A stretch of 64,000 nucleotides of DNA from an uncultured Dokdonia sp. (GTDB taxonomy: Bacteria > Bacteroidota > Bacteroidia > Flavobacteriales > Flavobacteriaceae), in assembly GCA_947503305.1 (NCBI GenBank), contig CANNDF010000006.1, positions 275,025 through 339,024 of the forward strand. Direction: 5' to 3'. Each line of letters starts with the position of its first letter. The stretch's first letter is position 1. Below are positions 4,590-60,969 of this stretch, in pieces. Position numbers and translations under genes: made by a program. The notes beneath the pieces are model-generated. The model did not search any database. It saw only the letters and a program-made list of their open reading frames with translations, and was not told where the DNA came from.

Positions 4590-4613
4590 AGTACGCTTTC
4601 GCGAAAGCGTACT
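4590..4613. repeat. Dispersed palindrome, full 24-base copy (core 4595-4608)
   Basis: The core GCTTTCGCGAAAGC is extended by AGTAC on the left and GTACT on the right, giving a perfect 24-base palindrome. This is the longest copy in the window and probably shows the full unit. It lies between the divergent M23 peptidase and alaS genes. Confidence 0.9.
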
Positions 4614-4666
4614 ACATCTACCTTAACGATCAAAGATAAAAATAATTATTCGATACGATTAGATCT

Positions 4667-7288: not shown

Positions 7289-7299
7289 CGGCTTAATTG

Positions 7300-7633: not shown

Positions 7634-7670
7634 CGTCTAAAATGCTACAATAAATTTATATCTTAACAAG

Positions 7671-12852: not shown

Positions 12853-12866
12853 GCTTTCGCGAAAGC
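12853..12866. repeat. Dispersed palindrome copy between paaE and paaA
   Basis: Perfect core GCTTTCGCGAAAGC beginning on the base after the paaE stop codon. It occupies most of the 36-base paaE-paaA gap. Confidence 0.85.
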
Positions 12867-15079: not shown

Positions 15080-15580
15080 ATGACTTTAGAAACCCAACAT
15101 ATAGAACCACATCTTATCTCCATTCTGGAATCTGTTTCAGATCCAGAGATCCCCGTGCTTTCTATTATGGATATGGGCGTAGTACGAGAAGCTATTGAAG
15201 TAGATGGAGTGATTCAAGTAAAAATAACACCTACCTATTCGGGATGTCCAGCAATGGATGTAATTGGGGATGATATTGTGTCCGCTTTCGCGAAAGCGAA
15301 TAAAAAAGCAAAAATCACTTTAGTATTAAGTCCTGCCTGGACAACAGATTGGATCACAGATAGAGGAAGGAAAGCATTAGAAGAGTATGGAATCGCAGCG
15401 CCTCTTTCTCCAGAAGCCGATAAAGAAGCATTATTAGGGAATAAGAAAATAGTAAAATGTACCAATTGTGGATCGACAGAAACACACTTGGTGAGTCAGT
15501 TTGGATCTACAGCTTGTAAAGCATTGTTTAAATGCGATACGTGTCAAGAACCATTTGATTATTTTAAATGCTTGAAATAA
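15080..15580 (+). CDS. paaD: Phenylacetate degradation protein PaaD (MIP18/SufT-like)
   Basis: 166 residues. The N-terminal DUF59/MIP18 domain has SVSDPEIPVLSIMDMGVVRE and the cysteine motif YSGCPAMD; the C-terminal zinc-ribbon-like part has CTNCGS...CKALFKCDTCQEPF. PaaD is thought to help mature the iron centres of the epoxidase. The DNA palindrome GCTTTCGCGAAAGC lies inside the gene and is read as AFAKA in SAFAKANKKA, in a surface helix of the DUF59 domain, so the family fold is kept. Flanked by AT-rich repeat copies 2 and 3. Confidence 0.95.
   Translation: MTLETQHIEPHLISILESVSDPEIPVLSIMDMGVVREAIEVDGVIQVKITPTYSGCPAMDVIGDDIVSAFAKANKKAKITLVLSPAWTTDWITDRGRKALEEYGIAAPLSPEADKEALLGNKKIVKCTNCGSTETHLVSQFGSTACKALFKCDTCQEPFDYFKCLK
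15284..15297. repeat. Dispersed palindrome copy inside paaD
   Basis: Perfect core GCTTTCGCGAAAGC, 16 bases palindromic with the flanking C/G. Read in frame as AFAKA. Confidence 0.85.
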
Positions 15581-16870: not shown

Positions 16871-18139
16871 ATGAGTAAATCAAATCAACAATTTCCAATC
16901 AACAATCCACAATCTCCGATCAAAACTGTAGGAATTATTGGAGCAGGAACCATGGGTTCTGGAATTGCACAAGTAGCAGCAACAGCAGGATGTTCTGTAA
17001 AACTTTTTGATGTACAACAGCCTGCTTTAGATAAAGCAGCGACAAAACTCGAAAAAATTCTGAATCGTCTTATAGAGAAAGGAAGGATTGATGCAGACGA
17101 GAAAAATAGAATTCAAGAAAATATTCAATATGTAAATTCTTTAAAAGAGTTAGCAAATGCAGACTTGACTATTGAAGCTATCATTGAAAACCTTGATGTT
17201 AAAAAGAAGGTATTCCAAGAACTAGAATCGTATGTTTCTGATACCGCTATTATAGCCTCAAATACATCTAGTCTTTCTATCGCTTCCATTGCAGCATCGT
17301 TAGAAAAACCAGAGCGCTGTATAGGAATTCATTTCTTTAATCCTGCACCTTTAATGAAATTGGTTGAGGTAATTCCGGCAGTGCAAACTTCTCAAGATGT
17401 ATTAGATATGTGCGTTGCAGAAATTACTCGCTGGAAAAAAGTAGTTGCTGTAGCAAAGGATACTCCTGGGTTTATTGTAAATCGTGTAGCACGTCCTTTT
17501 TATGGAGAGGCTTTGCGTATTTATGAAGAAGGAATAGCAGATTTTGCAACGATAGATTGGGCTATGAAATCTATAGGAGGATTTAGAATGGGACCTTTTG
17601 AGTTGATGGATTTTATAGGAAATGATATTAATTATACCGTAACAGAAACCGTATTTAATGCCTTTTATCAAGACCCAAGATATAAGCCTTCATTTACACA
17701 ACAAAGGCATAGTCAGGCAGGATATTTAGGACGTAAGTCAGGAAGAGGATATTATCATTATACCGATGAAAATGCTGAGAACGCTTTCGCGAAATCGAGA
17801 AAAGGAGCTTCACGACCAGAGGGAGAGCGAAGCGATAAAGCAAACTCAAATACAGATGAGGTAGTAGAAACACAAATTTTTGAACGTATTCTTGTGATGC
17901 TTATCAATGAAGCAGCAGATGCATTATTTTGGAATGTAGCGAGTGCAGAAGATATAGATAATGCCATGACTAAAGGAGTAAATTATCCTAAGGGATTACT
18001 CGCATGGGCTGATGAGAAAGGAATAGATTGGTGTGTATCACAACTGGATGCTTTGTATGATGAGTATCATGAAGATAGATACCGATGCTCACCTTTGTTA
18101 AGAAGGATGAGTAGAGAAGGAAATATATTTTTTAATTAA
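16871..18139 (+). CDS. paaH: 3-hydroxyacyl-CoA dehydrogenase PaaH
   Basis: 422 residues. It oxidises 3-hydroxyadipyl-CoA with NAD. The Rossmann motif is VGIIGAGTMGSGIAQVAA (about 19-36); catalytic-region signatures are HFFNPAPLMKLVEV and KDTPGFIVNRV, and a second helical domain follows (GPFELMDFIGNDINY). Two parts look foreign. Residues 2-17 (SKSNQQFPINNPQSPI) are encoded by DNA resembling the right arm of the neighbouring repeat elements. An insert at about 297-330 contains AFAKS from a one-mismatch palindrome followed by GASRPEGERSDKANSNT. Typical PaaH-like proteins lack both. The catalytic core is intact. Confidence 0.93.
   Translation: MSKSNQQFPINNPQSPIKTVGIIGAGTMGSGIAQVAATAGCSVKLFDVQQPALDKAATKLEKILNRLIEKGRIDADEKNRIQENIQYVNSLKELANADLTIEAIIENLDVKKKVFQELESYVSDTAIIASNTSSLSIASIAASLEKPERCIGIHFFNPAPLMKLVEVIPAVQTSQDVLDMCVAEITRWKKVVAVAKDTPGFIVNRVARPFYGEALRIYEEGIADFATIDWAMKSIGGFRMGPFELMDFIGNDINYTVTETVFNAFYQDPRYKPSFTQQRHSQAGYLGRKSGRGYYHYTDENAENAFAKSRKGASRPEGERSDKANSNTDEVVETQIFERILVMLINEAADALFWNVASAEDIDNAMTKGVNYPKGLLAWADEKGIDWCVSQLDALYDEYHEDRYRCSPLLRRMSREGNIFFN
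16877..16922. repeat. paa-operon repeat element, copy 4, right half, inside the 5' end of paaH
   Basis: AAATCAAATCAACAATTTCC followed by CAATCCACAATCTCCGATC resembles the right arms of the intergenic copies (AATCAAAAATC...CTACAATCTCCAAT). It is translated as paaH residues 3-17. Together with 16462-16500 it brackets the four-helix-bundle gene. Confidence 0.55.
17783..17796. repeat. Dispersed palindrome, one-mismatch copy inside paaH
   Basis: GCTTTCGCGAAATC differs from the core by one base (T for G). Read in frame as AFAKS within a non-conserved insert of PaaH. Confidence 0.7.
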
Positions 18140-20018: not shown

Positions 20019-20034
20019 GCTTTCACGAAGGTGA
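20019..20034. repeat. Degraded palindrome copy after paaJ, next to a second short repeat
   Basis: GCTTTCACGAAGGTGA is a decayed form of the GCTTTCGCGAAAGC unit placed, as after paaE, directly behind a stop codon. CTGAACCTGTCGAAG (20043-20057), a motif that recurs in many bacterial genomes, follows at once. Confidence 0.5.
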
Positions 20035-20746: not shown

Positions 20747-23281
20747 ATGATTTTAGAATCTTACATAAATGGCCAGTGGGTTACTGGAGACAATACAAAT
20801 ACTCGTAATATGTATGATGCTATTACGGGAGAAGTAATAGGCCTTACGAGTACTGAGGGACTTGATGTTGCGAGTGCATTACAGTACGGTCGTGATCACG
20901 GAAAAGCATTGAGAGATATGACCTTTCAGCAACGTGGTAATATGATTAAAAAGCTGGCATTGTATCTTAACAAGCGTAAAGAACAGTTTTATGAGATCAG
21001 TTATAAAACAGGTGCTACACGCGTAGATAGTTGGATTGATATAGAAGGAGGATTTGGAAATTTATTTGCAAATGCAAGTTTGCGTAAGTTATTTCCAGAT
21101 CAATCCTATGCTGTAGAAGGAGATCCTATTGATTTATCAAGAGGCGGTCGGTTTATGGCGCATCATATTTTGGTACCGAAAAAAGGAGTAGCAGTACATA
21201 TCAATGCGTTTAACTTCCCTGTTTGGGGAATGTTAGAAAAATGTGCTGTAAACTGGATGGCAGGAATGCCAGCGGTAGTACTTCCTGCACCACAAACCGC
21301 ATTCTTAACAGAGGCAGTCGTTAAAGAGATCATTCATAGTGGGATACTTCCTCCAGGAGCATTACAATTATTGTCAGGACTTACGACTTCAATCCTAGAT
21401 ACGGTGGCAAGCCAAGACGTTGTTACGTTTACAGGAAGCGCTCATACAGGACGTTTACTCAAAGCACACCCTAGATTACTAGAAGAAAGCGTGCCATTTA
21501 CTATGGAGGCAGATAGTTTGAATGCCGCTGTTTTAGGACCTGATGCCGTTCCAGGCACTCCAGAGTTTGGCATTTTTATCAAGGAAGTGCGTAAAGAAAT
21601 GACAGTGAAGTGTGGTCAAAAATGTACGGCCATTCGCCGAATTATTGTTCCGGAAAATTTAATGGAAGACGTGCAAATTGCCTTAGGGAAGCAATTGGAT
21701 AGAACGGTTATAGGAGATCCTAAACGTAAAGAAGTACGTATGGGAGCGTTAATCAATACTGATCAACGTGATGCCTTAAAAACACAAGTAGAGAAAATTT
21801 CAAAAACAGCAGCTATTGTATATGGTTCTTTTGATCCTGTAGAAGCAATAGGCGCCGATGGTGAAAAAGGAGCTTTTATGCGACCTATTTTGATGCGCGA
21901 AGACCAACCGTTTAAAAATACACAAGTACACGAAATAGAGGCCTTTGGCCCTGTGAGTACACTAATGCCATATAACGGTGTTGAAGAAGCGATAGCGCTT
22001 GCTCAAATGGGGAAAGGATCACTAGTGAGTTCTGTAGTGACTGCAGATAACGCTTTCGCGAAAGCGTATACCGTAGAAGCGGCATCTCATCATGGACGTA
22101 TCTTAATACTCAATAGCGAAAGTGCTCCACAAAGCACAGGACACGGTTCACCATTACCATTATTAGTTCACGGAGGTCCAGGACGCGCAGGGGGTGGAGA
22201 AGAAATGGGTGGATTACGAGGAATCAAACACTATATGCAACGATGTGCGGTACAAGGAAGTCCTACAAGTCTGACAGAAATTACGGGAATATACCAGCCT
22301 AATGGCGCATATACCGAAGCTGAAAAGCATCCGTTTGCATACCATTATGAAGATATCAAACCAGGAATGAGCCTGCAAACGCATAAGCGTACCTTAACCG
22401 ATACCGATATTCAGAATTTTGCAAATCTTACGTGGGATCATTTTTATGCGCACACAGATATTACGAGTTTGGATGGAAGTATTTTCCAAAAACGTACTGC
22501 TCATGGATACTTTATTATTTCGGCAGCAGCAGGATTGTTTGTATATCCTAATAAAGGACCCGTTTCTGCTAATTATGGATTAGAAGATATTCGTTTTTTA
22601 AGACCGTTATATCACAATGATACTATCTATGTACGATTAACATGTAAAGAAAAACGTGAACGTGATGTGTCAGGAAGAGAACATCCAAGCGGTATTGTAA
22701 AGTGGTATGTAGAGGTATTTGATGCAGCGCCTGTAGACTATGAAAATGGAAAGACAGACGAAGAGGCAACAGCTTTAGTAGCTGTGGCTACGATCCTAAC
22801 TATGGTAGAGAAAAAGCAAACCACGTTTGTTGAGATGACTGACGAATCAATAAATGCATGTCTCTCAAAGCTAACTAAAGATAGTAAACCAAATTGGGGA
22901 ATAATGACTGCCCAGCATATGGTAGAACATTTAGAATTTAGTTATCGTGTCGCTGGGAATCAATTACAAGATTTTGATATTGCAACTCCAGAAAAATACA
23001 TAGATAAAGTGGGAGCTACTTTATGGAATTATGAAAAGATGCCACATGACTATGAGATGCCATTAATGAAAAAAGGAACGGTTGAAGACTTGCGTCATCC
23101 AGATTTAGAAACCGCTATAACGAAGTTTTGGGAAGCAAAGGATGTGTTTAAAGATTTTTATAAGAAAAACCCTAAAGCGCAAACAAAAAATCCTGTTTTT
23201 GGGTACTTAACTAAATATGAGTGGTACTTACAAGAACGCAAACACTTGAACCATCATTTTGAGCAATTTGGTTTGCTGTAG
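20747..23281 (+). CDS. paaZ: PaaZ: aldehyde dehydrogenase + MaoC-like hydratase, fused to a C-terminal DUF1569-like domain
   Basis: 844 residues. The aldehyde dehydrogenase part (about 1-520) has VTFTGSAHTGRLL and the catalytic Cys region VKCGQKCTAIRRI (about 287-299). The MaoC/hot-dog part (about 538-690) has LTWDHFYAHTD and AHGYFIISAAAGLFVYP. Together they open the oxepin ring and oxidise the resulting aldehyde. E. coli PaaZ ends here (about 680 residues). A further 150 residues (about 697-844; NWGIMTAQHMVEHLEFSYR, HLNHHFEQFGLL) resemble the DUF1569/DinB-like helical family. A palindrome copy is read as AFAKA in DNAFAKAYTVEAA. Confidence 0.95.
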   Translation: MILESYINGQWVTGDNTNTRNMYDAITGEVIGLTSTEGLDVASALQYGRDHGKALRDMTFQQRGNMIKKLALYLNKRKEQFYEISYKTGATRVDSWIDIEGGFGNLFANASLRKLFPDQSYAVEGDPIDLSRGGRFMAHHILVPKKGVAVHINAFNFPVWGMLEKCAVNWMAGMPAVVLPAPQTAFLTEAVVKEIIHSGILPPGALQLLSGLTTSILDTVASQDVVTFTGSAHTGRLLKAHPRLLEESVPFTMEADSLNAAVLGPDAVPGTPEFGIFIKEVRKEMTVKCGQKCTAIRRIIVPENLMEDVQIALGKQLDRTVIGDPKRKEVRMGALINTDQRDALKTQVEKISKTAAIVYGSFDPVEAIGADGEKGAFMRPILMREDQPFKNTQVHEIEAFGPVSTLMPYNGVEEAIALAQMGKGSLVSSVVTADNAFAKAYTVEAASHHGRILILNSESAPQSTGHGSPLPLLVHGGPGRAGGGEEMGGLRGIKHYMQRCAVQGSPTSLTEITGIYQPNGAYTEAEKHPFAYHYEDIKPGMSLQTHKRTLTDTDIQNFANLTWDHFYAHTDITSLDGSIFQKRTAHGYFIISAAAGLFVYPNKGPVSANYGLEDIRFLRPLYHNDTIYVRLTCKEKRERDVSGREHPSGIVKWYVEVFDAAPVDYENGKTDEEATALVAVATILTMVEKKQTTFVEMTDESINACLSKLTKDSKPNWGIMTAQHMVEHLEFSYRVAGNQLQDFDIATPEKYIDKVGATLWNYEKMPHDYEMPLMKKGTVEDLRHPDLETAITKFWEAKDVFKDFYKKNPKAQTKNPVFGYLTKYEWYLQERKHLNHHFEQFGLL
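22052..22065. repeat. Dispersed palindrome copy inside paaZ
   Basis: Perfect core, 18 bases palindromic with flanks (ACGCTTTCGCGAAAGCGT). Read in frame as AFAKA. Confidence 0.85.
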
Positions 23282-26410: not shown

Positions 26411-27007
26411 ATGATTTATAGTTTTAAAGGCCATATCCCGGTCATACATCCTTCTAGTTTTGTTCATCCATTGGCTGCCGTGACGGGCAATGTGATTATT
26501 GGAAAAGATTGTTATATAGGACCTGGAGCTGCTATACGAGGAGATTGGGGAGAGATCATACTTGAGGATGGGGTAAATGTACAGGAAAACTGTACAGTAC
26601 ATATGTTTCCAGGAAAGTCTATACGCTTTCGCGAAAGCGCACATATAGGGCACGGCGCTGTAATACATGGCGCAAACTTAGGTAAGAACTGTCTCATAGG
26701 AATGAATAGTGTGATTATGGACGATGCAGTGATAGGTGATGAATGTATTATAGGTGCTATGGCATTTGTAAAAGCAGAAACAGTCATTCCATCTCGAAGT
26801 CTAGTGGTAGGTAATCCTGCAAAAATAATTAAAGAAGTAAGCGATGAAATGATCGCTTGGAAAACGGCAGGCACAAAATTATATCAACAACTCCCAACCG
26901 ATTGTTATGAGTCATTACGGGAGGTTGAACCATTAAGAGAGATTCCTAAAAATAGACCTCAGCAAGAAGACTTTTATAAAACACTTCAGGAGTTTAAAGG
27001 GAAGTAG
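26411..27007 (+). CDS. paaY: PaaY-like gamma-carbonic-anhydrase-fold thioesterase
   Basis: 198 residues from the ATG at 26411 (MIYSFKGHIPVIHPSSFVHP); an in-frame start ten codons upstream is weaker because it reads through non-conserved residues. Left-handed parallel beta-helix hexapeptide repeats (VIIGKDCYIGPGAAIRGDWG, IGHGAVIHGANLGKNCLIGM) carry the metal-binding His residues (NCTVHMFPG, SAHIGHGAVIHG). A C-terminal helix follows (YESLREVEPLREIP). In other bacteria PaaY hydrolyses ring-hydroxylated CoA side products. A palindrome copy is read here as FRES in IRFRESAHIGHG, right beside a metal ligand. Confidence 0.9.
   Translation: MIYSFKGHIPVIHPSSFVHPLAAVTGNVIIGKDCYIGPGAAIRGDWGEIILEDGVNVQENCTVHMFPGKSIRFRESAHIGHGAVIHGANLGKNCLIGMNSVIMDDAVIGDECIIGAMAFVKAETVIPSRSLVVGNPAKIIKEVSDEMIAWKTAGTKLYQQLPTDCYESLREVEPLREIPKNRPQQEDFYKTLQEFKGK
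26625..26638. repeat. Dispersed palindrome copy inside paaY
   Basis: Perfect core, 16 bases palindromic with flanking C/G. Read in the third frame as FRES. Confidence 0.85.
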
Positions 27008-29309: not shown

Positions 29310-30374
29310 ATGAGTAGAATAGCCATACTAAAAACTACTACATCAAAGCTCAATACGATTGACTTTGAAAACATCCCATTGGGACGAGCGTTTACAGACC
29401 ATATGTTCATCTGTGATTATACAGATGGACAATGGCAAGATCCTCGAGTAGAACCTCTGGAGATGATCCCTACGCATCCAGCTGCGATGGCATTACATTA
29501 TGGACAAGCCATTTTTGAAGGGATGAAAAGTACGCTTTCGCGAAAGCGTATACCACTACTTTTCCGTCCCTATGAAAATGCAAGCCGTCTTAATGCTAGT
29601 GCTAGACGCATGGGAATGCCTGAATTTCCAGAAGAGTTATTTGTAGAAGGGTTAAAAGCACTAGTAGATGTAGAACAAGCCTGGATTCCTCCAGCTGAAG
29701 GGAGTGCTCTGTATTTGCGTCCATTTATGTATGCAGATGAGCCTTTTATAGGTATGCGTGCAGCCACATCTTTTAAGTTTATTACTATCGCTTCGCCAGC
29801 AGGGCCATTTTTTAGTAAGCCTATAAAATTATGGGCGGAGCATTCATACATACGAGCAGCAAATGGAGGAACAGGAGAAGCAAAAGCCGCTGGAAATTAT
29901 GCCGCTGCTATACGGCCTACAGAAATTGCAAAATCAAAAGGATATGATCAGGTATTATGGTTGGATGCACACGAACATACATATATTCAAGAAGTAGGGA
30001 CTATGAATATCTTTTTTAAAATAAAAGGACAGTTTATAACCCCTTCATTAGATGGTTCGGTACTCCATGGTATCACTCGTAAAAGTGTTATAGAAATACT
30101 CAAACACAAAGGGTATACAGTTACAGAACGACCTATAAAGATTGATGAAATTATAGAGGCCTCATCAGACGGAACGCTAGAAGAAGCTTTTGGTACAGGA
30201 ACTGCCGTAGGAATTGCCTATATACAAGAGATAGGACTTGGAGAAGAAAATATTCATGTGTCTGATACTTACCCAGTGGCAGAAGCAGTTAATCAAATGC
30301 TTTCAACGATCAAAACAGGAGGGCAAGATCCCTTTAAATGGATGGTTGCTGTTACCACAAAAGAGTTAGCTTAA
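29310..30374 (+). CDS. ilvE: Branched-chain amino acid aminotransferase
   Basis: 354 residues, class IV PLP fold. Motifs are LHYGQAIFEGMK, RPYENASRLNASARRMGMP, LRPFMYADEP, GTGEAKAAGNYA (PLP Lys at about 191), QVLWLDAHEHTYIQEVGTMN and SVLHGITRKSVIEI. It interconverts Leu/Ile/Val and their keto acids; lying between the E2 and E1 genes, a catabolic role feeding the dehydrogenase is likely. A full 20-base palindrome copy is read as LSRK in STLSRKRIPLLFRP, in the loop before the PLP-fold core. Confidence 0.94.
   Translation: MSRIAILKTTTSKLNTIDFENIPLGRAFTDHMFICDYTDGQWQDPRVEPLEMIPTHPAAMALHYGQAIFEGMKSTLSRKRIPLLFRPYENASRLNASARRMGMPEFPEELFVEGLKALVDVEQAWIPPAEGSALYLRPFMYADEPFIGMRAATSFKFITIASPAGPFFSKPIKLWAEHSYIRAANGGTGEAKAAGNYAAAIRPTEIAKSKGYDQVLWLDAHEHTYIQEVGTMNIFFKIKGQFITPSLDGSVLHGITRKSVIEILKHKGYTVTERPIKIDEIIEASSDGTLEEAFGTGTAVGIAYIQEIGLGEENIHVSDTYPVAEAVNQMLSTIKTGGQDPFKWMVAVTTKELA
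29531..29550. repeat. Dispersed palindrome copy inside ilvE
   Basis: TACGCTTTCGCGAAAGCGTA, a perfect 20-base palindrome (core 29534-29547). Read in the second frame as LSRK. Confidence 0.88.
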
Positions 30375-30433: not shown

Positions 30434-32500
30434 ATGAATAAAGAACTACTAAGAAAAGGATTTGAAAATCTTTGTACAGCAAAATCTTTGACAGAACTAT
30501 ATGAAGACAACTTTAAAATAGTTTCTAAATATGTGCATGCAACCAGTCGCGGTCATGAAGTTATCCAGACAGCTATAGGGATGCAATTATGTCCTCAGGA
30601 CTATGTTTTTCCATATTATCGAGATGATTCTATGTTACTGGCTATAGGGATGAAACCCTATGATTTGATGCTACAAGTACTTGCAAAACGAGACGATCCT
30701 TTCTCTGCAGGGCGTACTTATTATTCACATCCTAGTTTAAAAGATAGTAATAAGCCTAAAATACCTCACCAAAGTAGTGCAACAGGTATGCAGGCAATAC
30801 CTGCCACTGGAGTCGCTATGGGGTTTTGGTATAAAGAAAATAATCCTGAAATAAATAGTCAGGGCATAGAAAATGCTAATGGTGATGCTCCTTTTGTAGT
30901 CTGTTCATTGGGGGATGCATCAGTTACAGAAGGAGAGATCGCCGAAGCATTTCAAATGGCAGCATTAAAACAATTACCTATCCTTTACTTAGTACAGGAT
31001 AATGGATGGGATATCTCTGCAAATGCTGCAGAGACTCGTGCTCAGGATGCATTTGAGTATGCAAAAGGATTTCATGGGTTGGAAGCTATATCTATAGACG
31101 GAACTGATTTTAAAGAGAGTTATGAAACACTACAAGAAGTAATTCATACCATCCGGACAGAGCGACGTCCATTTTTAGTACACGCAAAAGTTCCATTACT
31201 TAATCATCATACCTCAGGTGTACGTATGGAATGGTATCGTGATGATCTGGAAGAAGCACGTAGTCGGGATCCATATCCTAAAATGATTCAGTTATTGCTA
31301 GATAATGGAATAACACAAGTAGAAATTGATGAGATAGTCGCTTTGGCGAAAGCGGAAGTCCAAAAAGATTTTGAAGCTGCACAACAAGCAGAAGATCCAA
31401 AACCTGAGGATTTATTTACACATGATTTTGTTCCTACCCCTATCACTGAAGAAAAAGGAGAGCGTTCTCCTGCCGATGGTGAACAGGTAGTTATGGTAGA
31501 TTGTGCACTGTTTGCAATAGAAGAATTAATGAAAGAACATCCTGAATGTTTATTATATGGACAAGATGTTGGAGGGAGACTGGGAGGTGTTTTTAGAGAA
31601 GCAGCAACCTTAGCTCAAAAATTTGGAGATCATAGAGTGTTTAATACCCCTATACAAGAAGCATTTATTGTAGGGTCTACAGTTGGGATGAGCGCAGTAG
31701 GTTTAAAGCCTATAGTAGAAGTTCAATTTGCAGATTATATCTGGCCAGGACTCAATCAACTATTTACAGAGGTAAGTCGTAGTTGTTATTTGAGTAATGG
31801 TAAATGGCCAGTTTCTATGATATTAAGAGTACCTATAGGAGCCTATGGATCAGGAGGGCCTTATCACTCATCATCTGTAGAAAGTGTAGTGACTAATATA
31901 CGAGGGCTTAAAATTGCGTACCCTTCTAATGGAGCCGATCTTAAAGGATTATTGAAAGCGGCTTATCATGATCCAAATCCAGTGGTAATATTTGAACATA
32001 AAGGTTTATATTGGTCCAAAGTACCAGGAACAAAAGGAGCAACTTCTATAGAACCCAATGAAGATTATATACTTCCTTTTGGGAAAGCATGGGTATTACA
32101 AGAAATCTGGAAGCAAGAGGACACAGAAACGATCTCTATAATTACCTATGGAATGGGTGTGCATTGGGCAATGAATGCTAGTGAAATGCTAGATATGCAA
32201 GATCGTATAGAAATAGTAGACCTTAGGACCTTACATCCCCTGGATTATGAGACCGTTTTTAAGAGTGTTAAAAAATGCGGTAAATGTCTTGTGATTACCG
32301 AAGAACCTTCTGATAATGGATTTAGTCGAAGCGTACAAGGTAGAATACAGGAAGAGTGCTTTCAAGAATTAGATGCGCCAGTGATGTTAATAGGGTCAGA
32401 AAATATGCCTGCAATTCCCCTCAATAGTACTTTAGAACAAACCATGATCCCTACTACAGAAAAGGTGAAAAATAAGATAATGGCATTATTAGAGTATTAA
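30434..32500 (+). CDS. Branched-chain 2-oxo acid dehydrogenase E1, alpha and beta subunits fused
   Basis: 688 residues. The alpha half (about 1-330) has RGHEVIQTAIG, the thiamine diphosphate motif SLGDASVTEGEIAEAFQMAALKQLP, with LPILYLVQDNGWDIS. The beta half (about 350-688) has YGQDVGGRLGGVFREA, TPIQEAFIVGSTVGMSAVG and VPIGAYGSGGPYHSSSVES. It decarboxylates the keto acid and loads the E2 lipoate. Separate alpha and beta genes are the rule in many bacteria; the fusion is common in Bacteroidota. A one-mismatch palindrome is read as ALAKA near the alpha/beta junction. Confidence 0.93.
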   Translation: MNKELLRKGFENLCTAKSLTELYEDNFKIVSKYVHATSRGHEVIQTAIGMQLCPQDYVFPYYRDDSMLLAIGMKPYDLMLQVLAKRDDPFSAGRTYYSHPSLKDSNKPKIPHQSSATGMQAIPATGVAMGFWYKENNPEINSQGIENANGDAPFVVCSLGDASVTEGEIAEAFQMAALKQLPILYLVQDNGWDISANAAETRAQDAFEYAKGFHGLEAISIDGTDFKESYETLQEVIHTIRTERRPFLVHAKVPLLNHHTSGVRMEWYRDDLEEARSRDPYPKMIQLLLDNGITQVEIDEIVALAKAEVQKDFEAAQQAEDPKPEDLFTHDFVPTPITEEKGERSPADGEQVVMVDCALFAIEELMKEHPECLLYGQDVGGRLGGVFREAATLAQKFGDHRVFNTPIQEAFIVGSTVGMSAVGLKPIVEVQFADYIWPGLNQLFTEVSRSCYLSNGKWPVSMILRVPIGAYGSGGPYHSSSVESVVTNIRGLKIAYPSNGADLKGLLKAAYHDPNPVVIFEHKGLYWSKVPGTKGATSIEPNEDYILPFGKAWVLQEIWKQEDTETISIITYGMGVHWAMNASEMLDMQDRIEIVDLRTLHPLDYETVFKSVKKCGKCLVITEEPSDNGFSRSVQGRIQEECFQELDAPVMLIGSENMPAIPLNSTLEQTMIPTTEKVKNKIMALLEY
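31340..31353. repeat. Dispersed palindrome, one-mismatch copy inside the E1 gene
   Basis: GCTTTGGCGAAAGC differs from the core by one base. Read as ALAKA in the linker region between the E1 halves. Confidence 0.65.
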
Positions 32501-36520: not shown

Positions 36521-36550
36521 AAAAAAACACCGAATATATTCGGTGTTTTT
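36521..36550. terminator. Bidirectional terminator-like hairpin (same stem as 34469-34490)
   Basis: AACACCGAAT-AT-ATTCGGTGTT (36526-36547) is framed by A- and T-runs. It lies between the DUF4136 gene (-), whose transcripts it would end, and the protease operon (-). Confidence 0.85.
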
Positions 36551-37226: not shown

Positions 37227-39227
37227 TTATAGGTTCTTAAATAAATTGTCTTCTACACTATTTGGTATTGTTACTTTTAAGTTAGGTTCTAATTCCATGG
37301 CTCTTTTTATTGCAAAAAGTGCATTTTCATTACGTGCCCAACTACGACGTGCAATTCCATTATTTACATCCCAGAAAAGCATGGATTGTAAACGTCTTTC
37401 AGCGTCTTTACTACCATCAAGAACCATACCAAAACCTCCATTTATAACTTCTCCCCATCCTACACCGCCTCCATTATGAATACTTACCCAAGTGGCTCCT
37501 CTAAAACTATCTCCTATAACATTATGTATGGCCATATCTGCTGTAAAGCGACTCCCATCATAGATGTTACTCGTTTCTCTATAAGGAGAATCTGTGCCTG
37601 AGACATCATGATGGTCACGTCCTAAAATCACATAGCCTATTGATCCTTTTGCTATTGCGTCGTTAAATGCTTGTGCAATTTTTGCTCTTCCCTCTGCATC
37701 TGCATATAAAATTCTGGCTTGAGATCCTACAACAAGTTTGTTCTCTTGTGCTCCTTTGATCCATTGAATATTATCTTGCATTTGTTGTTGAATTTCTTCT
37801 GGTGCTTCTTTTACAAGGGTTTCTAAAACTTGACATGCAATTTCATCTGTTTTGGCAAGATCTTCTGCTTTTCCAGAAGCACATACCCATCTAAATGGGC
37901 CAAACCCATAATCAAAGCACATTGGTCCCATGATGTCTTGCACATAGCTTGGGTATTTAAAGTCAATACCATTTGGTGCAAATACATCGGCACCTGCTCT
38001 AGAGCTTTCCAAAAGAAATGCGTTTCCATAATCAAAAAAATACGTTCCTTTTGCTGTATGCGCATTTATAGCAGCTGCATGACGGATGAGAGTACTCTGT
38101 ATGCTTTCGCGAAAGCGTACTGGATCTTCTGCCATACATTCATTGGCTTCATCAAAGGTCATTCCTAATGGATAATAACCTCCTGCCCATGGATTGTGCA
38201 GGGAAGTTTGATCACTGCCGATATCTATCTTAATATTATGAATGTCAAAAGCTTCCCATACATCCACAACATTCCCCTGGTATGCGATTGAAACGGTTTC
38301 TTTTTGTTTTTGGGCTTCTATAGTACGAGTAACAAGCTCTGTAATGTCTGTGATCACTTCGTCGACCCATCCTTGTGAATGTCTTGTATGCACAGCTTTG
38401 GGGTTTACCTCAGCACATATCGTAATACAACCAGATATATTTCCTGCTTTAGGTTGTGCTCCACTCATACCTCCTAGTCCTGAGGTTACAAAAATACCAC
38501 CACTAGGTGATTTTTTAATTTTTCTAAATGCATTTAATACCGTTATGGTTGTTCCATGTACAATCCCTTGTGGGCCTATGTACATATAACTTCCTGCAGT
38601 CATTTGTCCATACTGGGTAACACCTAATGCATTAAATTTTTCCCAGTCGTCTGGTTGAGAATAATTAGGGATCATCATACCATTTGTTACTACTACTCGT
38701 GGTGCATCTTTATGGGATGGAAAAAGACCCATAGGGTGTCCAGAATACATGACCAGTGTTTGTTCATCATTCATTTGCGATAAGTAGTACATGGTAAGCC
38801 TATACTGCGCCCAATTTGAAAATACACCTCCATTACCTCCATAGGTAATAAGCTCATGAGGATGCTGTGCTACTGCTGGATCTAAGTTGTTTTGTATCAT
38901 AAGCATAATCGCTGCTGCTTGTTTAGATTGTGCAGGATATGCGTCTATAGGTCTAGCATACATCTTATAATCAGGTCGAAAGCGATACATATAAATACGG
39001 CCATAGGTATCTAATTCTTCTTTAAACTCTTGAAGTAGTAATGCATGATCTTTTGGGTCAAAATATCGTAATGCATTACGTAAGGCAAGTTCTTTTTCTG
39101 ATGGCGATAATATATCTTTTCGTTTAGGAGCATGATTTACTGAAGTATCATATGCCTTCTTAGGAGGGAGTATTGCAGGAATACCTTCTAGTATTTGATC
39201 AGAAAATTTTGTGTGTACCACTTCCAT
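37227..39227 (-). CDS. hutU: Urocanate hydratase
   Basis: 666 residues. It converts urocanate to imidazolone propionate, the second step of histidine breakdown. Motifs are ELITYGGNGGVFSNWAQYRL, MYSGHPMGLFPSH, the NAD-binding region VTSGLGGMSGAQPKAG, and MGPMCFDYGFGPFRWVCASG and GRDHHDVSGTDSPYRET near the active site. About 100 residues longer than the E. coli-type enzyme, as in the longer bacterial form. No other hut gene is in the window. A palindrome copy is read as FRES in DPVRFRESIQS. Between DUF5522 (upstream) and DUF4136 (downstream), all on the minus strand and tightly packed. Confidence 0.96.
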   Translation of the reverse strand: MEVVHTKFSDQILEGIPAILPPKKAYDTSVNHAPKRKDILSPSEKELALRNALRYFDPKDHALLLQEFKEELDTYGRIYMYRFRPDYKMYARPIDAYPAQSKQAAAIMLMIQNNLDPAVAQHPHELITYGGNGGVFSNWAQYRLTMYYLSQMNDEQTLVMYSGHPMGLFPSHKDAPRVVVTNGMMIPNYSQPDDWEKFNALGVTQYGQMTAGSYMYIGPQGIVHGTTITVLNAFRKIKKSPSGGIFVTSGLGGMSGAQPKAGNISGCITICAEVNPKAVHTRHSQGWVDEVITDITELVTRTIEAQKQKETVSIAYQGNVVDVWEAFDIHNIKIDIGSDQTSLHNPWAGGYYPLGMTFDEANECMAEDPVRFRESIQSTLIRHAAAINAHTAKGTYFFDYGNAFLLESSRAGADVFAPNGIDFKYPSYVQDIMGPMCFDYGFGPFRWVCASGKAEDLAKTDEIACQVLETLVKEAPEEIQQQMQDNIQWIKGAQENKLVVGSQARILYADAEGRAKIAQAFNDAIAKGSIGYVILGRDHHDVSGTDSPYRETSNIYDGSRFTADMAIHNVIGDSFRGATWVSIHNGGGVGWGEVINGGFGMVLDGSKDAERRLQSMLFWDVNNGIARRSWARNENALFAIKRAMELEPNLKVTIPNSVEDNLFKNL
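38103..38116. repeat. Dispersed palindrome copy inside hutU
   Basis: Perfect core followed by GTACT, the right-hand flank of the full unit. Read on the minus strand as FRES. Confidence 0.85.
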
Positions 39228-41808: not shown

Positions 41809-42714
41809 ATGACAGGAAATCAGCCTATTAAAATAAGTAATACAATCCGCTTGGATATTAAAAGAGAAGATCTTATTCATCCATTTATCTCGGGGAATAA
41901 ATATAGAAAGCTTACGTATAATATCGCTTTCGCGAAAGCAAATAACTACACCTCTCTACTTACTTTTGGAGGGGCGTATTCTAACCATATCGCCGCTACT
42001 GCAGCAGCAGGGAAAGAGTATGGGTTTGATACGATAGGGATAATACGAGGTGATGAGTTGGCTCATGATCTAGAAAAAACACTAGAGACTAATCCAACCT
42101 TGTCTTATGCAAGATCGTGTGGGATGAATTTACAGTTTGTCTCAAGATCTGAGTATCGTGCTAAAGACAATGAAGATTATTTAAAAACGTTAAGAGAAAG
42201 ATTTAAAAATCCATATATCCTTCCTGAAGGAGGTACTAATACTCTTGCGATCAAGGGGTGTGAAGAAATACTGGGAGAAATAGATAAGGAGTATGATTAT
42301 ATATGTTGTGCTGTTGGGACTGGGGGGACTATTTCTGGGATTATAAATACTTCAGGAGCACCTCAAAAAGTATTGGGATTTCCTGCATTAAAAGAAGCGT
42401 TTTTACATGATGAAATTTCAAAATATACAAATGCTCAACATTGGGAATTGATTAGAGATTATCATTTTGGAGGGTATGCAAAAGTGTCTAAAACATTAAT
42501 TGATTTTATGAATAATTTTTATGAGTCACATAAAATTATAGTAGATCCTATATATACAGGTAAAATGATGTTTGGAATTTTTGACCTAATTTCAAAAGGG
42601 TATTTCCCGCAAAATTCCCGTATTTTAGCGATTCACACAGGCGGTCTTCAGGGAATTGAAGGAATGAATAAAAAGCTACTAAAAAGAGGATTGCCTACTA
42701 TTAAAAATTCATGA
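41809..42714 (+). CDS. PLP enzyme of the ACC deaminase / D-cysteine desulfhydrase family
   Basis: 301 residues, fold type II. The PLP Lys is in SGNKYRKL (about residue 32), followed by LLTFGGAYSNHIAATAAAGK, LPEGGTNTLAIKGCEEI and CCAVGTGGTISGII, the phosphate-binding loop. The Flavobacteriia version most resembles D-cysteine desulfhydrase; deciding between that and ACC deaminase from sequence alone is unsafe. A palindrome is read as AFAKA in NIAFAKANNYTS without changing the length compared with family members. The stop overlaps the next start (ATGA). TATCTTCG (41789-41796) may be its -7 box. Confidence 0.85.
   Translation: MTGNQPIKISNTIRLDIKREDLIHPFISGNKYRKLTYNIAFAKANNYTSLLTFGGAYSNHIAATAAAGKEYGFDTIGIIRGDELAHDLEKTLETNPTLSYARSCGMNLQFVSRSEYRAKDNEDYLKTLRERFKNPYILPEGGTNTLAIKGCEEILGEIDKEYDYICCAVGTGGTISGIINTSGAPQKVLGFPALKEAFLHDEISKYTNAQHWELIRDYHFGGYAKVSKTLIDFMNNFYESHKIIVDPIYTGKMMFGIFDLISKGYFPQNSRILAIHTGGLQGIEGMNKKLLKRGLPTIKNS
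41926..41939. repeat. Dispersed palindrome copy inside the D-cysteine desulfhydrase-like gene
   Basis: Perfect 14-base core; flanks not palindromic. Read as AFAKA. Confidence 0.85.
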
Positions 42715-45348: not shown

Positions 45349-46836
45349 TCAAGAAATAAGTAAATTTAATGTTGTTTGATACAATGAATTCTTAGAGTTT
45401 TTTGAAAGTAACCACGCAAAATAACTCATCATAAAAATATCTTCTTTAGCACTGTTTTCTGTTGTGAAAAGAGTTTTTATGCTTTCGCGAAAGCGTACTT
45501 CTTCCACTTTCTCAGGATGTCTATAAACAATATCTAACATTTTCAAAAAATGTTGTAAACGTACTTCTTTTGAGATGGTAGATTTATAGTTTCTTTTAAA
45601 ACGTCTTAGGAGTGAATCGACTAAATCGATATGTTCAAGTTCTATATGAATGATTATTTGTACTAAATCACGTTTAATAATCCAATTTTCTCCCATTTTA
45701 TAGATGTACCAAACATCGCTATGGCGTAACATATTAAGTTGGGTAAGCGCTTGATCAAATCGCTCCTGTTGCATATAATAGATTACAAGTGCGAGAATTA
45801 GATCAGAATGCTTGGTCGGAGTATTGTTTTTAAAGTTTTTAAAATGGGCCTCTAATATTGCAATAGCTTGGTGTGCTTGTCCAGTATAATTTAAGTTTAA
45901 GGATTTTAATAATAGGTAACTTTCGTGAAAACGATTTGCATATTTCTTTCTATCCGTATGCATTTCTAATTGCATTTGAGATAAATAGTTCTGAGAAGTA
46001 ATAAAATCCCTATTTCGGAAATAGGCATTTGCCATAAAGTATAAAAAATAGATATGATAAAATCGATGTTTCTGAGGGGAGGTTTTTTTACGCTGTATGT
46101 GATCATACATTTTTTTAAAAAATGGCAATGCTTCTGAAAAGTTATGGGCAAGATGCGCTACGGTATTTGCTATTTCTAATAATTGAAAAAGAGATTTAAA
46201 AGTGAGAGAATCGTCAATTTTAATATTAAATTTTTGGAAAGCGATTTCCAGAAGCTCATTTATATTATATGTAGGGATATCTCTATTTTTTGCTAACTGG
46301 TTTTTAATATATGCATAAGCAAGGTTTAAGTTTTCTTGAGATTGATATCGATTTTGATTTGTTTGAAAACGATTAAATAATGCTTCTAAATCTATATTCT
46401 CGTGTAAGTGAGCATATTGTATTTGCGTATGATAAATTTCGCTTAACATACTGTATAAATCATTATCTAATCCTTTAATCTCTGCTTTGCGAAGTGTTTT
46501 TTGGGCAGGAATTACTAATCTGTGTTCGTAAAAGATTCGCGAAGCCAAAATAAGTTTTAAAACTTCTAGTTCTTCAGTGCTTTCTGTTTCAAAACCTCGA
46601 GTAGCTGTAAAATCTATAAGATTATCATAGAGGTGTTTGCACAAGGCATAGTATGCATTTTTAGAAGGCTTTCCATAGATTAATACATCTATGTCTTTTG
46701 TAGGAGGTCCTTGCCTAAGATGCTTAAGAAGCGTTAGGTTTTTAATGTCCTTACGTTTGTTCTTGTTACGTAGATATGCTTTAAATATATCGTATTCTTC
46801 AATTGAAAGCGATTGTATAATTTCAAAAAGCATCAT
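45349..46836 (-). CDS. Large helical protein of unknown function (TPR-like)
   Basis: 495 residues, no signal peptide, nearly all helical with repeating pairs of amphipathic helices (KHRFYHIYFLYFMANAYFRN, ALTQLNMLRHSDVWYIYKMG). This suggests a TPR-like solenoid. The beginning (LFEIIQSLSIEEYDIFKAYL) resembles the start of a Bacteroidota family of uncharacterised cytoplasmic proteins. I do not recognise a catalytic motif. A palindrome copy is read as FRES in VRFRESIKTLF near the C-terminus. Divergent from the zinc-ribbon membrane protein gene. Confidence 0.65.
   Translation of the reverse strand: MMLFEIIQSLSIEEYDIFKAYLRNKNKRKDIKNLTLLKHLRQGPPTKDIDVLIYGKPSKNAYYALCKHLYDNLIDFTATRGFETESTEELEVLKLILASRIFYEHRLVIPAQKTLRKAEIKGLDNDLYSMLSEIYHTQIQYAHLHENIDLEALFNRFQTNQNRYQSQENLNLAYAYIKNQLAKNRDIPTYNINELLEIAFQKFNIKIDDSLTFKSLFQLLEIANTVAHLAHNFSEALPFFKKMYDHIQRKKTSPQKHRFYHIYFLYFMANAYFRNRDFITSQNYLSQMQLEMHTDRKKYANRFHESYLLLKSLNLNYTGQAHQAIAILEAHFKNFKNNTPTKHSDLILALVIYYMQQERFDQALTQLNMLRHSDVWYIYKMGENWIIKRDLVQIIIHIELEHIDLVDSLLRRFKRNYKSTISKEVRLQHFLKMLDIVYRHPEKVEEVRFRESIKTLFTTENSAKEDIFMMSYFAWLLSKNSKNSLYQTTLNLLIS
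45481..45494. repeat. Dispersed palindrome copy inside the helical protein gene
   Basis: Perfect core followed by GTACT. Read on the minus strand as FRES. Confidence 0.85.
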
Positions 46837-48581: not shown

Positions 48582-48619
48582 ACAACAATGAGTATCATGA
48601 TCATGATACTCATTGTTGT
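48582..48619. terminator. 38-base perfect palindrome just after the YiaA-like gene
   Basis: CAACAATGAGTATCATGA and its exact reverse complement meet without a spacer (48583-48600 and 48601-48618), extended by A/T on each side. No loop and only a weak T-rich tail (TTGTTGTTTG). It may act as a terminator for the upstream gene, or be a protein-binding site. Confidence 0.55.
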
Positions 48620-53541: not shown

Positions 53542-53555
53542 GCTTTCGCGAAAGC
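53542..53555. repeat. Dispersed palindrome copy between the FG-GAP gene and lysS terminator
   Basis: Perfect core, 16 bases palindromic, with TACT on the right. One of only three copies outside coding sequence. Confidence 0.85.
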
Positions 53556-53570
53556 GTACTGATAATAAAA

Positions 53571-53596
53571 AACCCGCTTTATAAAGCGGGTTTTAG
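53571..53596 (-). terminator. Terminator of lysS
   Basis: AACCCGCTTT-AT-AAAGCGGGTT (53571-53592), preceded on the plus strand by an A-run, gives a stem and U-tail for minus-strand transcripts from lysS; a TTTT on the other side makes it partly bidirectional. Confidence 0.88.
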
Positions 53597-57711: not shown

Positions 57712-57769
57712 ATTCTAGACTGTTTTTTTTTAGATTTTTAAACATCTTTTTTATAGATAGAGGCTTTTG

Positions 57770-57777: not shown

Positions 57778-57781
57778 TTAT

Positions 57782-58498
57782 GTGAATAAAGAAATCAAAG
57801 TAGAAGATCTCGGAAATAGAGATTATAAAGAAGTTTGGGATTATCAAGAGCAACTTTTCAAAGAGGTTCTTGATATAAAAATTAAAAATAGACGAGAAGA
57901 TGCAGGTCTTGAAACACCTAATTATTTTCTATTTGTAGAACATCCCCATGTATTTACATTAGGCAAAAGTGGTGATTTTGATAATTTGCTTGCCAATGAA
58001 AAAGAACTGGAAGCAAAAAATGCAACATTTTATAAAATCAATCGAGGTGGTGATATTACATATCATGGACCTGGGCAAATTGTGGGATATCCTATCCTAG
58101 ATTTAGAAAACTTCTTTACTGATATTCATAAATATCTTCGTTTTTTAGAAGAAATGGTCATTCTGACACTTGCAGAATATGGGCTTAGGGGAGAACGATC
58201 TCCTGGAGAAACTGGGGTTTGGTTTGATGTAGGGACCCCTTTTGCTCGTAAGATTTGTGCAATGGGTGTACGTGCTAGTAGATGGGTAACCATGCATGGA
58301 TTTGCATTTAATATCAATGCAGACTTGGGGTATTTTGATCTTATGATACCCTGTGGGATAAAAGATAAAGCAGTTACATCACTTAATGTAGAGCTTGGAA
58401 AAGAAAATGTAGATGAAGAAGAAGTCAAAGAAAAACTCCTCAAACATTTTTGTACCTTATTTGAAGCAGTAGCTGTAGAAAAACTGAATAGTCTGTAG
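57782..58498 (+). CDS. lipB: Lipoyl(octanoyl) transferase
   Basis: 238 residues from GTG at 57782, chosen because a -7 box lies just upstream and an in-frame TTG at 57767 falls inside it. Motifs are PNYFLFVEHPHVFTLGKSG, RGGDITYHGPGQIVGYPILD and MHGFAFNINADLGYFDLMIPCGIKDKAVT (shown as segments: HGFAFNINADLGYF and PCGIKDKAVTSL, with the catalytic Lys/Cys pair C and K in PCGIKDK). It transfers octanoate from acyl carrier protein to lipoyl domains, such as that of the E2 protein at 27963. Confidence 0.95.
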   Translation: MNKEIKVEDLGNRDYKEVWDYQEQLFKEVLDIKIKNRREDAGLETPNYFLFVEHPHVFTLGKSGDFDNLLANEKELEAKNATFYKINRGGDITYHGPGQIVGYPILDLENFFTDIHKYLRFLEEMVILTLAEYGLRGERSPGETGVWFDVGTPFARKICAMGVRASRWVTMHGFAFNINADLGYFDLMIPCGIKDKAVTSLNVELGKENVDEEEVKEKLLKHFCTLFEAVAVEKLNSL

Positions 58499-58503
58499 AA
58501 GAC

Positions 58504-60969
58504 TTAATTTACTTCATAAATTAAAATAGTACGGTTATCTCCTTGAGTAACGAATCCTAGATTTTTATTGCGCTCTAGATATCCAAAATAGGCTTGAGTA
58601 ATACCATAAACAGGAAAATTGTCTAGCGCAATACCTTTATTGTCAAAACAAAATACTTGACTTGTTTCTGTATTTGTGACAGAAATGTAATATTCCTTTC
58701 CTACTTTAAAAATGTGAGGGCGAGTATAGGTGCCAAAATCCAATGAGATTGTTTTATTATTAATAGTTAATGTATTTTCATGCATAGACGCATAAACAGT
58801 TCCAAGAGCTTGTACATAGGGATTTGAAATGTTATCACTTTGTACTCGAGTTAATTTTCCATTAGAGTTAATAGAAATTTTACCACCATTTACATCATAA
58901 GTGGTAAAATTAGCACCTTCTTTATAAATAGGGGTGTCTCCAAATTTGATAGTCTCGTTTACGGTAATACGAGATTTTCCTACACGACTCAAGATATTCA
59001 ACGTACCATTGTTTTCAGCAATAGAGATATAATCTTTATTACCTATTCTGTGATGACGAGGAGGGAAAATGATCTCACTATCGGCTTCTGTATATATAAA
59101 CCCTTTAACTAGCTTTGCATCTTTGTCAAACATTTGAACCTTATTTCCTTGAGTGATAATAAAACGATACTTGCGATTGTTTTCATAGTCAAAAACAGAT
59201 AATCCTTGTGTGATTGCATCTGCAAATCCTAATGGAAATGGGCTTACTTCATTACCATTGCGGTCCAGGATGTAAAATGTTTTTGGTGTTACAAAAGCAA
59301 GCTGTAAGCGTCCATTGCGATAAAGATCGACCTGCTGTATATCCCCTATTATAGATCCATTTAATTGTTTTTGCCATAATACTTTTCCTCTATTGCTTAT
59401 AAGATAAAGAGTATTGTTTTCGTCTTGAACTACAATATCTACTCCTTTGGTTCTATGATTTTTTACCAATTGGGGTGGCCTACTAATATTGTTTTCTAAT
59501 TTAATACTAGCGGTTTGTGTAATAGCGCCAGCATCTGGAGTAGCTTCGTTTTTGTTTATAATACCATTTAAGTACATAAAATCTCTATCTTGAATAAGCT
59601 GTAAAGCAGCAAAAGGATAGTTTTCAAAAGAAAGTGTTTTGATTTTTGGTTCTTGTTTTTCTGATGTGAGAGCGGCAAAACTTTTTTTAGACAAGTTAGA
59701 GACCATGAGAACACTGGAAGCACTACTTAATTGTGAAGAGGTATTTTGAAAAGCCATACTCTCATTAAGTGTTGCTTTGTTTTGGTAGTTTGCGATCATT
59801 GACTCTAGAGCATTTTGCTCAGGTGCAAAAAGATAGAAATTATCGAGTTTGCAATACCAAGTCGCTTTAGGAAGTGATAGTAGGGGTTTGTACGCTTTCG
59901 CGAAAGCATTATCATGAGCATATTTAAAAATATCAACTTGTCGAAAAGTAGTTGTAGGAGATACTTCAGGTAAGCTTTCTTGGGTTATATCAGGATCAAT
60001 AGTGTATCCTATAATAACACTGCCTGTATCGAGATAGATCACACCTATCTCATTAAATGAAGAAAGAAATGCTTGTTGTTCTATTTTAAATTTTGAAGGA
60101 TCTATTTTTTCATAAGAAGCAAGATTGTTTTTGTATACGTCCCAATCATCATAGGTGATAGATATTAAGCCATTTGCAGACAGAGGGGTAATTATTGGGA
60201 TTTTATTAGGTTGAGGAATAGTGTTTTTAAGCAATGAAAGATGCTGGCCTATAGAATCCCTCACAAGTGTAACACCACTGAGTTGAACATCATTTTGTGT
60301 AAGATGTATATCTGCCATTGACCATTCAAAAGTTTGAGATAAAGGAGAATCTTTAGCCCTAGGAAATAAGGTTGTCCATAGATCATAGACTCCCTCTCCT
60401 TTAATAAATATAGAAGCATCTGCATCGCTGTTACTTGCAGAATAAGTGCGTTCAAAAAAAGTATCCGTAAGTGGGTTTTCAGACTCTCGTATGGTGTTTT
60501 CTAGTAGAAGTTGAGATGTACTTACCATGAAGATATCATCGAGTAGTAAAGTATAAAAATCAGCCTTTTTTGTAGTAACACGATTTATAGAAGGAGTCGT
60601 TGTTTTTAAAGCGTCAATTTTTGTAGTAAGTGAATCTGTTGTAAATAATGAAGGGTGATATTTTGTAATAATTACAACTTCAGGATCTTCTTTACCCAAT
60701 TGTGTATAGGTGATTAGAGTCTCCCCTTTAGGTTTTAAGAGAGATAAATAATCATGATGCTCTTCAAAAAAATTATATAATGAAATCTCTTTAAGGGATT
60801 GTATAAAATCAGTATTAGAAACTGTAGAAGTGAAGTTATTAAGATTTGAAGTCTTTATAATAATACTCGCCTTACGGGGGATATACTCCGTAAGACTATC
60901 TGAACTGGTTTTTTTCTCAGTACAAGAAAAGAATCCAAGTATAAATAGAACAAGAAAAAAACGTTTCAT
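58504..60969 (-). CDS. Large lipoprotein with beta-propeller-like C-terminal half, function unknown
   Basis: 821 residues from the ATG at 60967-60969; a TAATTTTG box 21 bases upstream supports this start over the in-frame one at 60993. Lipobox FFSC (Cys at about 16). The N-terminal half (about 30-480) is mixed alpha/beta (ASIIIKTSNLNNF, GETLITYTQLGKEDPEVVII), similar to DUF3352-like regions. The C-terminal half (about 520-821) has repeated beta units (KGVDIVVQDENNTLYLISNR, GRLQLAFVTPKTFYILDRNG, RFIITQGNKVQMFDKDAKLV) like an FG-GAP/PQQ propeller. I do not recognise a named family. A palindrome copy is read as AFAKA in DNAFAKAYKPL. Upstream gene is rnhB, the same order as in other Flavobacteriia. 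Confidence 0.72.
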   Translation of the reverse strand: MKRFFLVLFILGFFSCTEKKTSSDSLTEYIPRKASIIIKTSNLNNFTSTVSNTDFIQSLKEISLYNFFEEHHDYLSLLKPKGETLITYTQLGKEDPEVVIITKYHPSLFTTDSLTTKIDALKTTTPSINRVTTKKADFYTLLLDDIFMVSTSQLLLENTIRESENPLTDTFFERTYSASNSDADASIFIKGEGVYDLWTTLFPRAKDSPLSQTFEWSMADIHLTQNDVQLSGVTLVRDSIGQHLSLLKNTIPQPNKIPIITPLSANGLISITYDDWDVYKNNLASYEKIDPSKFKIEQQAFLSSFNEIGVIYLDTGSVIIGYTIDPDITQESLPEVSPTTTFRQVDIFKYAHDNAFAKAYKPLLSLPKATWYCKLDNFYLFAPEQNALESMIANYQNKATLNESMAFQNTSSQLSSASSVLMVSNLSKKSFAALTSEKQEPKIKTLSFENYPFAALQLIQDRDFMYLNGIINKNEATPDAGAITQTASIKLENNISRPPQLVKNHRTKGVDIVVQDENNTLYLISNRGKVLWQKQLNGSIIGDIQQVDLYRNGRLQLAFVTPKTFYILDRNGNEVSPFPLGFADAITQGLSVFDYENNRKYRFIITQGNKVQMFDKDAKLVKGFIYTEADSEIIFPPRHHRIGNKDYISIAENNGTLNILSRVGKSRITVNETIKFGDTPIYKEGANFTTYDVNGGKISINSNGKLTRVQSDNISNPYVQALGTVYASMHENTLTINNKTISLDFGTYTRPHIFKVGKEYYISVTNTETSQVFCFDNKGIALDNFPVYGITQAYFGYLERNKNLGFVTQGDNRTILIYEVN
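59894..59907. repeat. Dispersed palindrome copy inside the large lipoprotein gene
   Basis: Perfect core preceded by GTAC. Read on the minus strand as AFAKA. Confidence 0.85.

Follow-up and report, generated by a model that had tools for sequence, protein, structure and literature searches.

Among the described systems, the uptake sequences of Pasteurellaceae (USS), e.g., those of Haemophilus influenzae, and of Neisseriaceae (DUS) come closest to the element analysed here, and the reader of DUS is the pilin ComP. In the parts of the published work cited here, USS are described as 9-base non-palindromic cores with AT-rich flanks on one side, present about once per kb and shown to function in uptake, and DUS as family-specific 10-base cores without flanking motifs that occur genome-wide in both coding and non-coding DNA (PMC1626085). 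The same source gives for USS/DUS regular spacing, a preference for non-coding DNA, a large excess of perfect over one-mismatch copies, stability between species and biased flanks, and it shows the origin of USS by substitution with the same length-change test that is used below (PMC1626085). In cyanobacteria, HIP1 (GCGATCGC) is presented as a highly iterated palindrome of 8–10 bases that is linked to orphan methyltransferases and has an unsettled function in the sections cited (PMC4390886). As for flavobacteria, natural competence is possible (PMC7965970, PMC8459023). Riemerella columbina is reported to take up its own DNA preferentially, and the commonest 7–10-base words described for Riemerella and Flavobacterium in that report are only A/T-dominated (PMC7965970). 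Transformation of R. anatipestifer is described as requiring ComEC, DprA, ComF, RecA and an adjacent pair of barrel and DUF5689 proteins, among others (PMC8459023).

Here we analyse a 14-base palindrome, GCTTTCGCGAAAGC, of Dokdonia. Its copies are like USS in their origin by substitution, regular spacing, non-coding preference, excess of perfect copies and biased flanks, and in being stable and shared within a clade, and they are like DUS in being genome-wide, family-specific and both coding and non-coding, as far as the cited parts of the source describe these systems (PMC1626085). In contrast to USS, the Dokdonia element, known from its sequence alone, is a palindrome of 14 bases with C-poor flanks on both sides and only one copy per 3.7–7.5 kb; unlike DUS, it has 14 bases plus flanks. 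While most of its hallmarks are already published for USS/DUS, the palindrome itself is undescribed in the literature searched (few subscription journals), where we found no report of GCTTTCGCGAAAGC, of a palindrome or repeat from Dokdonia or Nonlabens, of an uptake sequence in Bacteroidota, or of DNA uptake or transformation in Dokdonia or Nonlabens. Inner words of 10–12 bases do appear in 29 papers, and the 15 judged by title look unrelated. This agrees with the initial annotation of the locus, which knew of no described element with this sequence. By analogy with USS/DUS, we give roughly even chances to the proposal that the palindrome serves as an uptake-sequence-like self tag in Flavobacteriaceae.

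Copies in the window and across Flavobacteriaceae

The window, i.e., the whole 64-kb stretch of DNA that was analysed, contains 11 perfect copies of the palindrome, 8 inside ORFs and 3 between genes (Table 1). When up to three mismatches were allowed, 18 matches were obtained, while shuffled sequences gave a mean of 1.40 and none of 100 shuffles reached 18. All 11 perfect positions of the initial annotation and its one-mismatch copies at 17783 and 31340 were recovered where it had placed them, and its degraded copy at 20019 carries three mismatches. The 24-base unit that it had proposed is perfect at 4595, but this is the sole such copy in the window and the wider consensus is TAC-core-GTA.

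Table 1. Core palindromes and inserts in the window, with the sites of the related 45-bp inserts
Feature	Position	Strand	Context
Perfect core	4595..4608	.	24-base perfect palindrome AGTAC-core-GTACT; spacer between peptidase M23 gene (-) and alaS (+)
Perfect core	12853..12866	.	Immediately 3′ of the PaaE-like gene's stop codon, ahead of paaA
Perfect core	15284..15297	.	Within paaD; encodes AFAKA
Split core	17783..17796	.	One mismatch; break after GCTTTCGCGAAA; 3-hydroxyacyl-CoA dehydrogenase gene
Insert, 45-bp in-frame (15 residues)	17795..17839	+	Within palindrome; absent from the same site in G011, G014, G016
Perfect core	22052..22065	.	Within paaZ (AFAKA); same position in G016, G014, G011, G017
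Perfect core	26625..26638	.	Within PaaY-like gene (RFRES); same position in G016, G014, G011, G017
Perfect core	29534..29547	.	Within branched-chain aminotransferase gene (LSRKR), in place of a variable loop
One-mismatch core	31340..31353	.	Within 2-oxoacid dehydrogenase E1-like gene; perfect copies there in G016, G014, G011, G017
Perfect core	38103..38116	.	Within urocanase gene (RFRES)
Perfect core	41926..41939	.	Within pyridoxal-phosphate-dependent enzyme gene (AFAKA)
Perfect core	45481..45494	.	Within gene with weak, below cut-off TPR match
Perfect core	53542..53555	.	Spacer between FG-GAP/ASPIC protein gene and class II aminoacyl-tRNA synthetase gene
Perfect core	59894..59907	.	Within gene with weak, below cut-off DUF3352 match
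45-bp insert copies	window 17783-17841; L112:1719; L077:3718; L077, L059 and L215 (minus strand)	.	

Three perfect palindromes of 28, 38 and 26 bases at 36523-36550, 48582-48619 and 53569-53594 of the window are unrelated to the core and are possibly bidirectional terminators.

The window's own genome (G000; 4.26 Mb, 57 contigs) carries 570 perfect copies, whereas the reversed pattern does not occur in it at all, so the element is neither at chance level nor confined to the window. Each of 17 other Dokdonia genomes holds 369–905 copies, with 899 in G016 (3.29 Mb), and the density is one copy per about 3.7 kb in G016 and one per 7.5 kb in G000. A 400-kb sample of G016 contained 100 copies, compared with 0.001 expected from its base composition. 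Over-representation far above chance, as claimed for the 14-mer before, is thereby extended to a genome-wide, iterated element that is also found in relatives.

A draw of 397 Flavobacteriaceae genomes revealed hundreds of copies in six of them (two of g1, all three of g11 and the single one of g210), and 0–19 copies in each of the rest. Besides Dokdonia, the family includes two more genera with hundreds of copies. A scan of a genome collection with a 22-base form, which possibly omitted near relatives of the window's genome, returned 75 stretches, all of them from Dokdonia or Nonlabens. The AlaS tree is compatible with one as well as with several origins of the motif genera. G026, G024, G018, G023 and G022, sampled over 80 kb each, showed no comparable palindrome, although G024 and G022 have repeated words that are non-palindromic, and no comparable tag was detected in 20 kb each of 20 further genomes. 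As this test overlooked one of four G016 stretches used as positive control (L149, with 2 copies), sparse tags may escape such a search. In two of the genomes searched TTCCGAAGAAA was recurrent, with varied flanks.

Origin, spacing and gene context of the copies

The window is collinear with G016, G014, G011 (most of its length) and G017 (about 1–32 kb), and the motif-free outgroup G026 can be aligned with it in patches, at about 12–45 kb. Among 77 in-ORF copies from five Dokdonia genomes, 35 were alignable to G026; by our own grouping of rows these represent 11 distinct positions, 9 of them without length change. No net length change vs. G026 was seen in 31 of the 35 copies, and the other four (+5, +5, +8, and +10 residues) fall at a gap in the outgroup alignment. 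Random positions in the same test gave no length change in 514 of 547 cases. Since 31 of 35 copies replace existing codons at unchanged length, we concluded that coding copies, to which rather than to intergenic ones the test applied, were mostly built in place by substitution. For the same reason, a mobile or copying palindrome of the REP/MITE type, one of the origins considered in the initial annotation, is contradicted for coding copies. The many near-identical copies per genome and the presence of a 45-bp insert inside some of them speak for such an element, yet with the remaining four copies lying at the outgroup gap we regard it as extremely improbable.

The substitutions come with a change of protein, as the copies install AFAKA, RFRES or LSRKR in enzymes, e.g., PaaZ, PaaD, urocanase and the branched-chain aminotransferase. 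Signal-peptide-like N-termini (..AFAKAQ..) at two loci, L391:5509-6558 and L392:1118-2170, also accommodate the palindrome or the AFAKA that it encodes, and are a tolerant location.

At orthologous coding positions of different Dokdonia species, the 14-mer was identical in all 14 bases in 142 of 185 comparisons, which count species pairs both ways and are thus non-independent; 5.4% of 5991 random control 14-mers from the same genes were identical. In 784 kb of Dokdonia DNA, 201 perfect copies stood against 21 with one mismatch. Deviations in the latter were found at several positions, with distances from the edge of 0 (three copies), 1 (nine), 2 (one), 4 (six) and 5 (two). These data bear on the idea, also raised before, of a HIP1-like motif, which we considered as a product of methylation plus mismatch repair that has no reader of its own. 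The Dokdonia palindrome is likewise iterated and built in place, as the cited sections describe for HIP1 (PMC4390886), and resembles it in being clade-specific, and to this extent the comparison holds. A methylation origin fits poorly, however: of the 124 inner hexamers TCGCGA in 400 kb, 24 lie outside the core, which is no enrichment and fewer than the roughly 49 calculated from base composition, and one-mismatch deviations are not mainly at the outermost bases. We therefore judge a by-product of this kind highly improbable.

The copies are regularly spaced. For the first 100 copies listed on contig 1 of G000, the coefficient of variation (CV) was 0.55 with 4 of 99 gaps, those above 25 kb, removed, and 1.15, i.e., not regular, with these four deserts included. 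The first 67 copies listed in G016 gave a CV of 0.61 with no gap removed. Random placement gave 0.98, and none of 5000 simulations was as regular for either contig. Two of the removed G000 gaps, sampled over 80 kb, contained no copy and carried integrase, TraG, coupling-protein and relaxase genes. The sampled deserts thus hold the conjugative and integrase genes of mobile elements, and outside the deserts the spacing is more regular than random. Only 44 of 102 classified copies lay in ORFs vs. 89% of random positions. According to a simple ORF caller, copies were enriched 5.0-fold in convergent, 6.3-fold in tandem and 3.5-fold in divergent spacers, with 0.48-fold occurrence in ORFs.

Known chromosomal sites of similar size are parS and the Noc sites, 14–16-base palindromes with TTTC...GAAA arms. 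The main rival to an uptake role is a chromosome-organising site, related to the nucleoid or segregation signal proposed in the initial annotation. An intracellular dimeric protein would bind the evenly spaced palindromes all round the chromosome and thereby act in nucleoid occlusion, segregation or the compaction of the nucleoid. We consider it unlikely, although it accounts equally well for the regular spacing and the palindrome, and is consistent with symmetric flanks that show no left-right covariation from -5 outward, with the strong positional conservation and with the presence of 1–7 copies in each of twenty 20-kb samples taken around the complete G016 chromosome. However, these samples revealed no concentration toward one chromosome region. 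Moreover, a single ParB is encoded in 9 of 10 motif-dense genomes, and the additional one of G011 is of a 616-aa type that also occurs in motif-free genomes; a search with PF02195 in 25 genomes found no ParB/Noc paralogue specific to motif genomes. The Dokdonia palindrome differs from parS and Noc sites also in its centre, which is two bases shorter, and in its hundreds of copies per genome. Finally, the cost to proteins of encoding AFAKA, RFRES and LSRKR would be harder to explain if the site were free to lie nearby.

Flanking bases and the putative reader

Flank anatomy was determined from 202 copies (404 halves) in stretches that were unselected for flanks. Directly before the core stood C in 334 of the 404 halves and G in none of them; position -3 was T in 78% and position -2 A in 59% of halves. 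The TAC-core-GTA consensus is extended on each strand by a C-poor, keto-rich (T/G-rich) 5′ flank that reaches to about -22. Between -22 and -5 of the 5′ flank on either strand, the C fraction was 0.088 vs. 0.176 further out. Similar values were obtained for named Nonlabens loci (0.090 vs. 0.203 outside, 13 copies) and for g11/g210 (0.104 vs. 0.180 outside, 26 copies), and in intergenic copies the flank C depletion was stronger (0.066 vs. 0.154). Left-right covariation was absent from -5 outward, while -2 does covary among the unselected copies (z 4.8). The anatomy suggests that a duplex of ~54 bp is recognised by a putative protein.

Other readings of the flanks were rejected. A hairpin or RNA function is disfavoured by the covariation pattern, position -2 notwithstanding, and no Rfam match and no tRNA was found within the window. 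An intrinsic terminator would be expected to have a hairpin followed by a T run; here the 5′ flank is T-rich and therefore the 3′ flank of the same strand is A-rich, and covariation of the two sides is lacking from -5 outward. Peaks of T and C every 3 bases in the flanks partly reflect codon phase, and hence we make no claim of a helical period; the intergenic C depletion remains.

Chi sites are short and directional, and their surroundings are G/T-rich. A Chi-like recombination or repair signal, related to the DNA-repair role proposed in the initial annotation, would here be palindromic and so bidirectional, with T/G-rich 5′ flanks aiding recombinase loading. The substitution origin, the genome-wide density and the C-poor, keto-rich 5′ flanks of each strand agree with such a signal. 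Nevertheless, 14 fixed bases with flanks to about -22 make the element far longer than Chi, and we hold this explanation to be improbable.

If the palindrome is instead an uptake tag, it would be bound by a receptor at the cell surface, so that DNA of Dokdonia and its kin would be taken up and recombined preferentially, and this bias would build and maintain the copies. The putative reader acting in uptake would be a symmetric or dimeric DNA-binding protein. Uptake would proceed via the flavobacterial route encoded here, i.e., an outer-membrane barrel with a carboxypeptidase-regulatory domain, a DUF5689 lipoprotein and ComEC. We infer this route because 6 of 10 motif-dense genomes have no pilus/T2SS-type ATPase, which sets the system apart from the pilin-read DUS; the ATPase is present in the other four (G000 included) and in 1 of 12 further genomes. 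ComEC and DUF5689 were detected in all 22 genomes tested, motif-free ones included, and the barrel and DUF5689 genes lie next to each other in all four motif-dense genomes that were inspected for this, among them the window's own. The transformation machine is thus plausibly present in motif genomes. As it occurs equally in motif-free genera, the machine leaves the distribution of the motif unexplained.

It is possible, and we propose it tentatively, that Dokdonia and Nonlabens have an uptake sequence outside Pasteurellaceae and Neisseriaceae that is read by the flavobacterial outer-membrane transformation machine and not by a pilin, possibly by the fast-evolving DUF5689 lipoprotein. The DUF5689 tree fails to group the motif genera, and DUF5689 was rejected as a co-evolving reader.

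The uptake reading, which was absent from the initial annotation, fits more of the tested features. Against it, the copies are sparser than USS/DUS, which moreover are not palindromic, and copies at host-like density on a phage contig are not specially predicted by uptake. If it is true, a further phylum would have an independent self-DNA tag that is served by a different uptake machine, meaning that such tags evolve repeatedly, and the old question of why cells tag their own DNA could be tested in harmless marine isolates. If the palindrome is an internal chromosome site instead, its density and conservation would be unusual for such a site. Under either reading, the hundreds of copies in each genome (369–905) await a reader.

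Inserts in the palindrome and copies in foreign DNA

Removal of the 45-bp insert from the copy at 17783 restores the whole palindrome. Six copies have related inserts of exactly 45 bp (15 codons), which all interrupt the palindrome after GCTTTCGCGAAA (Table 1). At the aminotransferase site, the 45-bp insert is present in G014 and missing in G003; plasmid records gave no match to the aminotransferase gene, and a long palindrome suspected at this site in G015 proved absent. A 45-bp mini-element seems to target the palindrome. Further short inserts lie beside the palindrome or the 45-bp element at L108 (G015) and L208:1356 (G011), the G011 one containing CCTGCCTACCGACAGGCAGG, which suggests nested mini-elements.

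Palindromes were also observed in a contractile-tail phage contig, IMG/VR 3300040781_000495 (L176, L193, L196), with 6 copies in 27.9 kb, i.e., at about host density; its genes include portal, terminase, head-protease and tail-sheath ones. No copy was present in 35,652 and 30,000 bases of two phages whose isolation host was a Nonlabens relative.

Pairs of palindromes exactly 933 bp apart were found in four genomes (G254, G127, G118, and G141), each from a different one of the other genera. Three of the stretches, L365 (G254), L366 (G127) and L368 (G118), are 74–96% alike, and among the genes of L365 are those for an RND pump, outer-membrane efflux, a multicopper oxidase and a CusB-like protein; the region looks like a shared mobile metal-resistance region. 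In the four genomes examined, the small clusters of copies in other genera are located in or beside metal-efflux-type genes, as may be expected if this DNA left the motif genera, a direction that we infer.
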